A stretch of DNA of 64,000 nucleotides. It comes from Planctomycetota bacterium. GTDB lineage: Bacteria; Planctomycetota; Phycisphaerae; Phycisphaerales; SM1A02. The stretch spans positions 304,008 through 368,007 of the forward strand of contig JAIOPG010000007.1 of the NCBI GenBank assembly GCA_021414025.1. Reading direction: 5' to 3'. The notes below the pieces were generated by a model that ran no database searches, had not been told where the DNA came from, and was given only the letters and a program-made list of their open reading frames with translations. Below are positions 20,843-54,152 of the stretch, one piece after another (positions within the stretch are counted from its first letter, which is position 1; each line of letters opens with the position of its first letter). The position numbers and the translations under genes are program-made.

Positions 20843-21079
20843 CTATTGGGCTTCGCCGCCTGAAGCGGGACGAATCTGACCCGCGATCGGGTTGTCGTTC
20901 TTTTCCGAGGCGTTGATCTGGTCGGCGACCTCGCGGCGGTGCACCAGCACCTCGCGCGGAAACTCGAAGGCGATCCGGACCCGGTCCCCCTTGATCGAGG
21001 CGATGCGGACGATGCCCAGCGGCGCCGCGGGGTTGCCGATCACAACTTCTTCACCTTCGCGTCGGGTAATCACCAACAT
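20843..21079 (-). CDS. csrA: carbon storage regulator CsrA
   Basis: 78 residues starting MLVITRREGEEVVIG; the RNA-binding residues near the N-terminus (Leu4-region and Arg6) and the second RNA-contact strand PREVLVHRREV are present. CsrA binds GGA motifs in mRNA leaders and controls translation. The frame is open further upstream, but GAGG 9 nt before the ATG at 21079 and the family N-terminus fix the start. The tail after residue 60 is acidic/Asn-rich and variable. A GGA-rich structured RNA with its own terminator lies directly upstream on the same strand. Confidence 0.95.
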   Translation of the reverse strand: MLVITRREGEEVVIGNPAAPLGIVRIASIKGDRVRIAFEFPREVLVHRREVADQINASEKNDNPIAGQIRPASGGEAQ

Positions 21080-21164
21080 AGCTTTGAACCTCATTGCCAA
21101 GGCCGTCTCGCCGCAGTGCTCCAAGCCTCTGCGAATCCGTGCGATCGGGTCTGCTGATCGGGAA

Positions 21165-21208: not shown

Positions 21209-21248
21209 GAAAAGAAACGCCCCCGCACCGGGTCACGGTACGGGGGCG
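21209..21248 (-). terminator. strong intrinsic terminator of the GGA RNA
   Basis: Read on the minus strand: CGCCCCCG-a-CCGT... pairs with ACGG/CGGGGGCG (21218-21248), at least 12 bp with one interior mismatch and a 5-nt loop, followed by GTTTCTTTT. It separates the RNA from csrA. Confidence 0.85.
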
Positions 21249-21475
21249 ACGACGGATAGAACCCGAAAATCGGGGTTCCAGAGTCCTGGCCGCCATCCTT
21301 GGCGGTCTCAGACCCTTCCTGCGGGCCGTCCATGGCCCGCGTGTTCTGTTCGAATGGCTCCTGCTCCGCCGTCCCTGGCTGGAGTCAGTCGTCCATTCGA
21401 TGCTCCCCTGCGCTCCGCCGTCCCTGGCGTGAGCGCAAGTCTTTGATGAAACCGTTGCGTCCTGCAACGGGGTCG
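21210..21475 (-). ncRNA. candidate CsrB/RsmZ-like CsrA-binding RNA
   Basis: Minus-strand RNA of about 265 nt between mraZ and csrA. Hairpins with A(N)GGA loops, in order of transcription: 21470-21452 (7-bp stem, loop AGGAC); 21436-21410 (6+4 bp, loop AGGGAC); 21384-21364 (4+3 bp, loop AGGGAC); 21340-21321 (7 bp, loop ATGGAC); 21305-21290 (5 bp, loop AAGGAT). A sixth stem (21289-21278) has AGGA at its loop edge. I count 13 GGA in the transcript, several in linkers. It ends in a strong terminator. This matches the known design of RNAs that titrate CsrA. The 5' end and promoter are not clear; it may be cut from the mraZ transcript. No protein-like frame fits. Confidence 0.75.
21363..21428 (-). 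repeat. 17-bp direct repeat inside the GGA RNA
   Basis: An exact 17-bp repeat occurs at 21363-21379 and 21412-21428; each copy forms the right arm and loop of a GGA hairpin. It suggests growth of the RNA by hairpin duplication. Confidence 0.8.
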
Positions 21476-21490
21476 AAAGCTTGTCTGAGA

Positions 21491-21955
21491 TCAGCTCGAA
21501 CTTCGAGTTCGAATCGTCTCCCGGGCTCGCCGCCAGATGTCCGCGGCGGCGGGCTCGTGTCGGTCACGCTCCTCTTTCCATTGGTGCAAGGTGCAAAGTT
21601 CCAGATGATCTCGCACGCCGAGAATCATCAATTTCCCCGACAATCCGTAGCGCTCGAGCATGTGGTCGGGAATGCGCAGTCGACCCGCCTTGTCCAGAGG
21701 ACAGCGCGAGGATTGACTGAACATGTAGCGCTCGAAATTCTGAACTCCCTCGTCGCCCAGCAAGGAGCCGCCGAGGGCGTTGGCCAATTCGGCGAAGGTC
21801 GGCTCCGGCCACAGCCAGAGAAATCCGTTGGTCCCCGGCGCTGAAACAAAAACTGCATCCTTGCCTTCGTCCGGAAGACAGCATCGAATTTCCGATGGAA
21901 TTGCGAGACGCTGCTTCGCATCGAGGGAATGTTCGAATTGGCCTAGGAAGAGCAT
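21491..21955 (-). CDS. mraZ: transcriptional regulator MraZ
   Basis: 154 residues, two tandem AbrB-like half-domains with the MraZ signature DxxxR in each (DAKQR near residue 11 and DKAGR near residue 89). The start MLFLGQFEHSLDAKQ at 21955 is the family N-terminus; CAGGTG lies just upstream. MraZ is a DNA-binding repressor that normally heads the division/cell-wall cluster with rsmH. Here no dcw gene is adjacent; the GGA RNA and csrA follow instead. Three phased MraZ boxes lie upstream, so autoregulation is likely. Confidence 0.95.
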   Translation of the reverse strand: MLFLGQFEHSLDAKQRLAIPSEIRCCLPDEGKDAVFVSAPGTNGFLWLWPEPTFAELANALGGSLLGDEGVQNFERYMFSQSSRCPLDKAGRLRIPDHMLERYGLSGKLMILGVRDHLELCTLHQWKEERDRHEPAAADIWRRARETIRTRSSS

Positions 21956-21984: not shown

Positions 21985-22014
21985 TCAACACTTTGCAACA
22001 CCTTGCCCCACCTT
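21985..22014 (-). promoter_or_regulatory. MraZ operator: three contiguous decamer boxes
   Basis: On the minus strand AAGGTGGGGC-AAGGTGTTGC-AAAGTGTTGA: three head-to-tail 10-bp copies of AARGTGKKGM. This matches the known MraZ-binding design of three G-rich boxes repeated every 10 bp upstream of mraZ. They end 30 bp before the mraZ ATG and overlap the likely -35 region; TATTAC downstream may be the -10. Confidence 0.8.
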
Positions 22015-22148
22015 GGATCAAATTTCTGCATTTTTCATGCACCCGAACCCATTGGCAGCCCAATAACAGACGTCAAATTATTTATAAATACCTGCAAATA
22101 ATAGATTTAGACTAGAAATTCTATTTTTTAGGGTTACCGTGTGTGCAT

Positions 22149-22715
22149 ATGGCATCGCGATGCGATTGGACACCAATCGAGAGGTCCGGGATCAGCGATC
22201 TGCTGGATCAGATTCCAAGCGATCTTTTTTTGTTGACGGGCGCCTACGGCGAAATGCGCGGCGCCGCACTGGTGCGCTGGGTGCAGCAAGTGGCTTCAAA
22301 CCCGCCGATGTTGGTCATCGCGATTGAAAAGGGTCAGCCCCTCAGTCCCATCATCCGCGATTCACGGGGATTCGCCCTGTGCCTGATCAGCGCCAACGAT
22401 CCGATCTGCTCGCGGCTTTTTCGCCAGCTTCCTGAGCACACCCAGGATCCGCTGATCTCAATCCCCTGCTCGAAGACGCCCTCGGGGGCGCCCGTTCCCA
22501 CTCGCGCCACCGCGTGGTTTGATTGCGAAATCATGCGCCACTTCGACATTGAGGCCGATCACGAGGTCTACATCGGATGCATTCATCACGCGGGCCGCAA
22601 CGCCGAGGCGCCGATCGCCAAGCGCAAGCGCGCAGCGCCAGCGGTGAAAGCCAAGGGTTCAGGCGAGCGTCCGGGTTCGCGAAGCAAGGCCCGCTCGCTC
22701 CGCCCACGTTCGTGA
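22149..22715 (+). CDS. flavin reductase-family (FMN-binding split barrel) protein
   Basis: About 188 residues from the ATG at 22149 (a GTG at 22143 is the alternative). The pattern LLTGAYGEMRGAALVRWVQQ followed by PPMLVIAIEKGQPLSPIIRD and GFALCLISAND is that of flavin reductase-like split barrels, which bind FMN. The last 35 residues are a Lys/Arg/Ala/Ser-rich, probably disordered tail, unusual for the family. The upstream 22050-22140 stretch is notably AT-rich for this genome. Confidence 0.8.
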   Translation: MASRCDWTPIERSGISDLLDQIPSDLFLLTGAYGEMRGAALVRWVQQVASNPPMLVIAIEKGQPLSPIIRDSRGFALCLISANDPICSRLFRQLPEHTQDPLISIPCSKTPSGAPVPTRATAWFDCEIMRHFDIEADHEVYIGCIHHAGRNAEAPIAKRKRAAPAVKAKGSGERPGSRSKARSLRPRS

Positions 22716-52425: not shown

Positions 52426-54000
52426 TTACTTCAGCACGCCGGCGCTGCGGGCCAGGAAACGTGGCGGCGGCCAGAGCACCACATCGCCGGTGCCGTCGGC
52501 GGGATCGTGCTGTTCGAAGCCGTCGTCTTCGTGATCAGGACCAACCGACCAGAGCACCGCGCCGCTGACCTGGACCTGGCCCCAAGGCGTGCCCAGCGGC
52601 TGATCCTTCTCCAGCACGCGATAGTTCAACCTTTCATAATCCTTCGAATAGGGGTCGAAGTTCATGCGCCGCATTCCGTAAATGGGAAACGCGTTGGCGA
52701 GGATCGACGGATACTGCTTGGAGCTGTCCAGGTAGAAGCCGCAGAGCGCCGCGCTCATGGCGGTGCCGTCGATCTCCGCAATCAGGCGCAAGCGCGCGTC
52801 GAAGACCTGCTGCAGATTCTCCACGAAGAGCGTGACCAGGGCGTACTTGCTTTGGTTGAGCTTGGAGAACTGCGTCGGCACGTCCAGGATCGGGTCGTAG
52901 AAGCGCATCCTCCAGCGCCGCCACCAATCGTCGTAGATCCCCGCCAGTTTTTCCATGCTCGCCTCGAGGCTGCCATGCACCTTGCCCAGCTCGCGCCATC
53001 TCGCCGAGGCCCCGAAGCGCGTCAGCGGCGAATTGATCGACTGCACGGCGCCGAACTTGTCCGCAAAGTACTGGTCATCCGGTTGCCCCGACGCGTTGAA
53101 GGCCTTGGGCATCGACTCGGTGAGAATGATCCGGTCGCCCTCGGGCAGCTCCAGACGCTTCAACCGCTCGTTGTCCCCCGGCTTGATGTAGGGATAGCCC
53201 TTGATCGCCATGCGCTGAAGCGTGGCCACCGGCAGCTGCTCCAGATTCGCCGCCATGTAGACGCGATTCGCCTCAAGGAGCCGCGACATGAGGTTCATGC
53301 CGGCCATTTTCTCCGCTTCCATCCGCTGCTCGCTCACCTGCCGCAGCACGCGCAGCATCGCCAGCGAAAGGTCGAAGGCCGGGTCAAACTTCTTGGCCTC
53401 CGCGTCCACATACATGGAGACCGCGGTGTAGGCCGTCAAGCCGCGCATCGCGTTGAGATAGGGCAGCGCCGCCTCGCCGGGCGCGGAGCCGGGCAGCGCC
53501 GCGATGCCTTTCGCCTTCCATTTCGGATCCAGGCCCTCTTCGCCATAGGGAATGCCCAGCACGAAGCAATTCTGCGCCTTCATGATCGCGTCGCGCAGGG
53601 CGGGATTGGCCGCGACCCATTTCTTCCACTCCGCGAAACCTTCCATGCCGGGCCAGATGTCCTCCGGTGACGGTGCAGTGGCGGAGGGCATGGGCGTGGC
53701 GGCGATCCACGCAGGGAAGAGAACATTGGCGCTGCGATTCTTCTCGCTCACACCTTTCCAGAACACGTTGAGTTCGTTCAGTGCGACGACGCCCTTGCTG
53801 GCCTCGAGCGCGCTCTTGGCCTTGGGAGCCGGTGCGGACTTCTCCTCAACGGGAGCTTCAGGGGGAGTCTTGGCGTCGGGCGGTGCCGGCTTCTCGGCGG
53901 GCGCGTCGGGCGGACTCTTGGCCGGATTGGCCGGCGTACTTTGGGCCAGGACCGGTGCATTCAACGAAAGTGCCAGAAGAAGTGCGATTCGAATGTGCAT
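52426..54000 (-). CDS. secreted helical protein of unknown function
   Basis: 524 residues from the ATG at 54000. Signal peptide (cut near VLAQ), then a Pro/Ala/Glu/Lys-rich linker to about residue 70, then a long soluble domain with FWKGVSEKNRSANVLFPAW and GYPYIKPGDNERLKRLELPEG, NAFPIYGMRRMNFDPYSKD near the end. No motif recognised; 11 bp after trxB's start on the opposite side, same strand. Upstream TATGAT may be its -10. Confidence 0.75.
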   Translation of the reverse strand: MHIRIALLLALSLNAPVLAQSTPANPAKSPPDAPAEKPAPPDAKTPPEAPVEEKSAPAPKAKSALEASKGVVALNELNVFWKGVSEKNRSANVLFPAWIAATPMPSATAPSPEDIWPGMEGFAEWKKWVAANPALRDAIMKAQNCFVLGIPYGEEGLDPKWKAKGIAALPGSAPGEAALPYLNAMRGLTAYTAVSMYVDAEAKKFDPAFDLSLAMLRVLRQVSEQRMEAEKMAGMNLMSRLLEANRVYMAANLEQLPVATLQRMAIKGYPYIKPGDNERLKRLELPEGDRIILTESMPKAFNASGQPDDQYFADKFGAVQSINSPLTRFGASARWRELGKVHGSLEASMEKLAGIYDDWWRRWRMRFYDPILDVPTQFSKLNQSKYALVTLFVENLQQVFDARLRLIAEIDGTAMSAALCGFYLDSSKQYPSILANAFPIYGMRRMNFDPYSKDYERLNYRVLEKDQPLGTPWGQVQVSGAVLWSVGPDHEDDGFEQHDPADGTGDVVLWPPPRFLARSAGVLK

Positions 54001-54152
54001 GGGGTGGTCTCGAATGGGAAGAGCGGAAATCATAGCCAACTGCTGGCGGTCAGGCCGCTGGTCGCTAAACTTGCCGCCCTTGGCTTTGTTGCGGATGGGC
54101 GGCATTCATGTGGGTGCCCCGTCGTGCGGCGGCCGGGAACGAGGAGCGCGTC

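Follow-up and report, generated by a model that had tools for sequence, protein, structure and literature searches.

CsrB-family sponge RNAs have been described as widespread among gammaproteobacteria (PMC7652899), and high-affinity sites for RsmE are reported to follow a rule: an ANGGAX hexaloop that sits immediately on top of a stem (PMC4005645). Other described cases derive from mRNAs. RsmU of Xanthomonas is an RsmA-binding RNA processed from an mRNA 3′ UTR, and replacement of its four GGA motifs did not do away with binding or effect (PMC7694677). In Campylobacter jejuni, a segment of the flaA leader antagonizes CsrA together with FliW; the same paper mentions fimAICDHF of Salmonella, with a CsrA-titrating mRNA leader (PMC4894983). 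The TwoAYGGAY motif is listed for the human gut, gammaproteobacteria and Clostridiales (PMC2864571).

For planctomycetes it has been proposed that FliW may serve instead (PMC4682653). According to a 2020 review, joint action of FliW and an sRNA in any species remains to be determined (PMC7652899). In the open-licence literature on CsrA, planctomycetes, mraZ and 3′-UTR sponges we found no report of a CsrA sponge RNA in planctomycetes, and the planctomycete and CsrA passages of PMC12316311, PMC9029176, PMC10729762 and PMC11607428 contain no such RNA.

Here we describe a chain of hairpins after mraZ in a 64 kb window (the whole stretch of DNA analysed) from a planctomycete genome of 2.8 Mb. On comparative sequence grounds, we consider it likely to be a CsrA-sequestering RNA that derives from the 3′ portion of the mraZ transcript.

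The hairpin chain and its probable transcription unit

On the minus strand of the window, mraZ (21955-21491) is followed by 280 nt of hairpins (21490-21211) and then by csrA (21079-20843). The features are:

21987..22011, minus: three 10-bp-spaced GTGKK repeats, MraZ-box-like, upstream of mraZ (pattern search)
21491..21955, minus: mraZ, the gene accompanying the RNA (Pfam PF02381, E 1.4e-14)
21211..21490, minus: whole RNA element, model R2, spanning mraZ stop to terminator tail (conserved alignment A2, covariation)
21452..21470, minus: hairpin 1, loop AGGAC (conserved stem; GGA loop absent in seven near relatives)
21407..21439, minus: hairpin 2, loop AGGGAC, bulged stem (fold, strict scan, alignment)
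21351..21399, minus: hairpin 3, loop AGGGAC, long interrupted stem (fold and alignment)
21321..21340, minus: hairpin 4, loop ATGGAC (strict scan and alignment)
21290..21305, minus: hairpin 5, loop AAGGAT (strict scan and alignment)
21259..21278, minus: hairpin 6, without a GGA loop (fold and alignment)
21209..21248, minus: intrinsic terminator, 13-bp stem and T-rich tail (double-sided changes, stem kept)
20843..21079, minus: csrA, second (mraZ-linked) paralogue and probable partner (Pfam PF02599, E 6.4e-14)

A sequence-only reading of this DNA had claimed five A(N)GGA loops, 13 GGA in about 265 nt and an intrinsic terminator. All five loops (AGGAC, AGGGAC, AGGGAC, ATGGAC and AAGGAT) are present on the minus strand; in 21210-21475 we likewise counted 13 GGA on that strand, versus 2 on the plus strand; and the terminator stem comprises 13 bp at 21248-21218, with TTTCTTTTCA after it. 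The stems of 5-10 bp that it gave are right for hairpins 1, 4 and 5 (5-7 bp) and not for hairpins 2 and 3, which are longer and interrupted, and its extent of 21210-21475 has to be redrawn, the feature starting at the mraZ stop (21490) and reaching about 21211.

The window averages 5.0 GGA per 266 nt, and at least 13 occur in 0.34% of 266-nt windows taken in 10-nt steps on both strands, the element site included. The segment 21190-21495 folds with a minimum free energy of -159.1 kcal/mol, versus -120.8 ± 5.6 in 100 shuffles (z -6.83), and 0/100 shuffles were as stable as this 306-nt segment around the element. A strict scan, requiring an uninterrupted stem of at least 4 bp and a loop of the form A(N)GGAN, and overlooking hairpin 3 with its interrupted stem, returned 5 hairpins on the plus and 12 on the minus strand of the 64 kb; the sole 300-nt stretch with at least 3 was the element site, which had 4. 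A looser scan also gave 4 hairpins at the element, and found four GGA-loop hairpins in 53801-54100 on the plus strand, where the strict scan gave no cluster. No second copy of the element was found elsewhere in the genome, so the RNA would have to be made in large amounts.

The repeats upstream of mraZ resemble what we take to be the MraZ box consensus, and their pattern occurs once in the window. With patterns derived from these very sites, the loose form was found before mraZ in 71 of the 76 loci whose upstream stretch was long enough (shuffled mean 0.38, largest 2; reverse strand 0), and the tight form in 63 of the 76 (shuffled 0). A flavin-reductase-like gene lies beyond, at 22143-22715 on the plus strand, divergent from mraZ.

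Only 20 nt separate the mraZ stop codon from the first hairpin, and a search for sigma-70-like sites found none at the 3′ end of mraZ. Given this short distance and the lack of a clear promoter, the chain more likely arises from the mraZ transcript than from a gene of its own. Third-base diversity in mraZ is 0.26 at codons 131-140 and 0.27 at codons 151-154, with 0.38 between them; elsewhere it is 0.28-0.46, and 0.20 at codons 1-10. We set aside an independent promoter within mraZ as less likely, there being no sigma-70-like site and only a slight dip in diversity, though the slightly low value at codons 131-140 would be compatible with one. Sigma-54 promoters of csrA are mentioned in a planctomycete (PMC12316311). 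The simplest reading would be one transcription unit comprising mraZ and the chain.

Conservation of stems and loops in relatives

Relatives were gathered with a CsrA protein query, which yielded 80 csrA loci. Four were left out, three with no mraZ on the contig (L032, L053 and L065) and L091, in which the gene order is different. This gave 77 mraZ-csrA gap loci (the window plus 76), 43 tandem and 34 convergent; many are near duplicates (e.g., L027-L029, L058-L060, L045 and L050), and the counts that follow are not independent.

The strict scan detected 213 hairpins on the mraZ strand of the 77 gaps (37,479 nt, 5.68 per kb), versus 1 on the opposite strand (0.03 per kb), and 0.17 per kb in flanking DNA. 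Seven alternative three-base cores in the same loop form gave 0-12 hairpins, versus 213. With the 19 hairpins that lie 60 nt or less from a csrA start omitted, tandem loci had 109 sense and 1 antisense hairpins, and convergent loci 85 and 0; after that omission, at least one sense hairpin was left in 76/77 loci and at least two in 68/77. The loops themselves are uniform: 23 of the 213 have five bases and 190 are six-base ANGGAN loops, which agree with the published high-affinity form for RsmE (PMC4005645). The loop-closing pair is C-G in 200/213, and successive loops less than 150 nt apart have a median spacing of 43 nt (115 spacings).

Closer relatives could be aligned (A2, 13 near sequences including the window, 304 columns). 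The A2 structure comprises 67 pairs, which were placed from folds and whose brackets were corrected once from the alignment; it replaced an earlier version (R1), in which the register of hairpin 6 and of the terminator was off, and which had given 80.6% paired and 16 double-changed pairs. In this structure, which is thus fitted to these sequences, 95.0% of pair cells are kept. Changes on both sides affect 26/67 pairs, versus 16.6 in shuffles, and 83 cells, versus 28.2, values reached by 0/500 shuffles in either case. When the 3′ partner was slid by 1-3 columns, pairing fell to 33-46%. Further pair types were not above chance (44 versus 46.4 in shuffles, reached by 458/500). Invariant columns concentrate in the GCCANGGANGGC parts.

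The loop of hairpin 1, which had been described as a GGA loop, is one in the window and in five near relatives (L031, L033, L034, L037 and L039); in seven others (L027-L030, L035, L036 and L047) the GGA is absent and the stem is kept. A convergent clade of seven loci, aligned and folded separately (A3), has double-sided changes in 16/115 predicted pairs, a count that has no shuffle control, and a terminator-like hairpin on the mraZ strand.

A covariance model of the element (R2), which was built from the window and hence leaves it uncounted, matched 42 of 65 other sources among the collected loci at E <0.01 and on the expected strand, while 23 fell short. Its opposite-strand matches at that threshold (in the window, L043 and L048) span the palindromic terminator only. 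A whole-genome R2 search, which scored only nine candidates per genome with stricter filters, matched 4/198 genomes of the class; counts of hairpins after mraZ served instead for the broader survey. A DNA search with 301 bases found a match in 18/101 relatives, which indicates that DNA similarity fades fast outside the genus.

The expectation that homologous loci would keep both stems and GGA loops, with compensatory change in the stems, was therefore borne out by the strict scan of the 77 loci and by the covariation in A2 (26/67 pairs). A(N)GGA loops stay while the stems change on both sides, and they do so on one strand only. The CsrB-like layout stands, and conservation strongly supports the element as a candidate CsrA sponge of CsrB-like type.

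Association with mraZ and possible functions

In 76 genomes of the class, A(N)GGA loops were counted from folds of the 350 nt that follow mraZ (the random seed of the shuffles differs between runs). L194, L214 and L133 (no mraZ match) and L132 (too short) were excluded, as were L198 and L234, which are fillers. At least two loops follow mraZ in 44/76 genomes, and none in 20; the candidate is thus present in the planctomycete for which it had been proposed, and is not limited to it. The sense mean is at least 1.4 in f1 (11 genomes), f2 (8), f4 (2), f5 (3), f6 (5), f11 (4), f15 (7), f19 (1), f20 (5), f22 (3) and f25 (1), and low or mixed (0.5-1.0) in f8, f10, f12, f13, f18 and f23; no loops were found after mraZ in f7 (2 genomes), f16 (3), f24 (4) and f26 (1). 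Family means are 0-0.38 for antisense and 0.05-0.55 for shuffled counts. Outside the class, family f49 has 1-4 loops in 6/6 genomes, several of them larger than the strict form, and among 30 further loci one loop occurs in 3 and two in none. Two f49 genomes, G364 and G347, both from another planctomycete class, show nine csrA matches apiece, no fliW match, and GGA-loop hairpins after mraZ.

The RNA belongs to mraZ, not to csrA. This is because the chain stays on the mraZ strand where csrA is convergent (34/77 loci); because L091 (2501-3640) has the order csrA, mraZ, RNA on one strand, unique among the 77/80 loci with mraZ on the contig; and because rsmH comes next after the chain in six loci (L116, L188, L191, L197, L212 and L162, from families f11, f15, f19 and f25). 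These six were the RsmH-like cases among 14 loci whose downstream frames were inspected, and all six are of the MraW family (Pfam PF01795). The same observations do not support the position upstream of csrA as the defining arrangement. In the window itself, rsmH is not adjacent to mraZ.

What the chain does is a separate matter. It might be a CsrA target in cis: CsrA, bound to the 3′-terminal part of the mraZ mRNA or to the stretch between mraZ and rsmH, would alter the stability or translation of that mRNA, with no titration in trans. The chain begins right after the mraZ stop, as a cis site could, and in the six loci of f11, f15, f19 and f25 it is followed by rsmH with no terminator found between; in two of them (L116:2053-2389 and L188, both f15) more A(N)GGA hairpins lie inside the rsmH coding sequence. 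A home-made terminator scan of the 650 nt after mraZ, covering 31 loci, had no terminator in 11/12 loci of these four families, that of L188 being inside rsmH, and a cis element is suited to these families because the terminator is mostly not found there. The scan also found none within 650 nt in f6 (0/3 loci), f5 (0/1) and f20 (0/2), and did find one in 6/8 f1, 3/3 f2 and 2/2 f49 loci. In the window's genus, however, the terminator precedes csrA and leaves that transcript with no further reading frame; several sites of high-affinity type would also surpass what a cis site needs, and the chain stays where the neighbour genes vary. We regard action in cis as the main rival of a sponge and as unlikely; one reading could hold in some families and the other in others.

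A structured RNA with another partner, be it a different GGA-loop protein or an RNA target, and unrelated to CsrA, appears improbable. The distribution of csrA offers this idea some room: csrA is nearly as common in chain-negative genomes (28/32) as in chain-positive ones (43/44), and since it is found in 71/76 genomes of the class, its co-occurrence with the chain is weak evidence. Families f7, f24 and f26 have csrA and no loop after mraZ, and G210 (82% complete) has six loops and no csrA match. In favour of CsrA as partner, the other four of the five genomes without a csrA match also lack a loop, three of them being f16, in which neither was found in 3/3 genomes; loop and closing pair also closely fit the published CsrA/RsmE rule, and csrA adjoins the chain in 77/77 gap loci of the window's family, loci that were found via csrA.

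The window's genome has two csrA genes, one beside fliW (C2) and one linked to mraZ. Aligned with solved CsrA structures, the mraZ-linked CsrA shows four inserted residues; R6, R7 and the EVxVHR stretch, positions that we take to be RNA contacts, are retained. A fliW gene is present in 31/44 chain-positive and 14/32 chain-negative genomes, and the 31 that have both make the question of joint FliW and sRNA action directly testable. Also in favour of a sponge, two chain-bearing genomes, G056 and G020 (95 and 96% complete), show a single csrA, which is mraZ-linked, and no fliW match.

That the chain is a 5′ leader through which csrA regulates itself is very improbable. It does lie upstream of csrA on the same strand in the window and in 42 other loci, but this reading fails because of the terminator between chain and csrA and because of the 34 loci with convergent csrA, where the chain occupies the opposite strand; in L091 it lies beyond mraZ. 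Moreover, csrA has GGA hairpins of its own near its start (19 strict hairpins within 60 nt in the 43 tandem loci), which look like CsrA autoregulation; in the window, the csrA leader (about 21110-21150, minus) carries its own conserved GGA hairpin.

Chance, a repeat element or palindromic DNA with no RNA function can be dismissed as scarcely credible: plus-strand matches to the palindromic stems (Atu_C3, 32.5/100 bits; Ysr224, 17.7/70) were rejected as far below their cut-offs, no other copy was found in the genome, and the GGA loops are strand-asymmetric on stems that show double-sided changes in relatives.

If the element is a CsrA-sequestering RNA from the mraZ transcript, transcription would start at the mraZ promoter bearing the MraZ-box-like repeats, run through mraZ and the hairpin chain and end at the intrinsic terminator. 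The chain could then act while still part of the full transcript or after being processed into a separate 3′ fragment. Each of the several stem-borne ANGGAN loops would be one CsrA site, so that the chain would hold several CsrA dimers and free CsrA-repressed mRNAs. The amount of sponge would track MraZ-controlled transcription, and cell-division control would thus be tied to CsrA.

The gene mraZ is usually the first of the division cluster, and if the proposal is true, a direct link would run between division-gene control and CsrA, through a CsrA-antagonist RNA outside the proteobacterial Gac/Uvr circuit. To our knowledge, a sponge supply tied to mraZ is a control logic found in no other Csr RNA. 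More tentatively, the chain could represent an ancient class of post-mraZ RNA, spread over much of what we take to be the class Phycisphaerae and perhaps shared with f49, that lets MraZ determine how much CsrA sponge is available in cells where FliW is also at work.

Comparison with known CsrA-binding RNAs

With CsrB/CsrC and RsmX/Y/Z/W (Rfam clan CL00106) the element has in common several A(N)GGA stem-loops and an intrinsic terminator, and its hairpin 2 resembles the RsmW hairpin (15.8 bits). It differs in being linked to mraZ and in that its genome also has fliW. In a gathering search of the window with Rfam, nothing but four tRNAs reached the cut-off (ARAGORN places a tRNA-Gly at 52455-52531, plus strand, that is absent from the Rfam gathering results); with E up to 10, the CL00106 models stayed below their gathering scores (RsmW 15.8/52 bits, RsmY 14.1/57). 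A scan of the window with what we presume to be the GacA/UvrY box consensus gave 8 matches within 3 mismatches, versus 4.0 by chance, and none near the element, that is, between 19538 and 33299. Because of the results with the Rfam models and the GacA box, we do not place the element in the CsrB clan: it is CsrB-like in design, outside that clan as defined by Rfam.

The TwoAYGGAY motif, judged by its name, has two AYGGAY loops and is like the element in this respect. Presumably it is among the Rfam models; the Rfam results for the window, with E up to 10, held no match to it. The decay-derived RNAs reported within E. coli mraZ (PMC6156199) are a different thing from the element.

The nearest case of an mRNA acting together with FliW is flaA. 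There the antagonist is a 5′ leader with two GGA motifs that probably binds one dimer (PMC4894983), whereas the element is multi-hairpin and lies after mraZ.

The nearest case of a 3′-UTR sponge is RsmU. Like RsmU, the element would be an RNA with GGA motifs that stems from the 3′ region of an mRNA; it lies directly 3′ of an open reading frame, shares the strand of that frame and has a terminator at its end. RsmU binds a CsrA homologue, which we count as a further likeness, CsrA binding being predicted for the element. Unlike the element, RsmU is described from Xanthomonas only, has three or four GGA motifs and derives from a ComEA-like host gene (PMC7694677).
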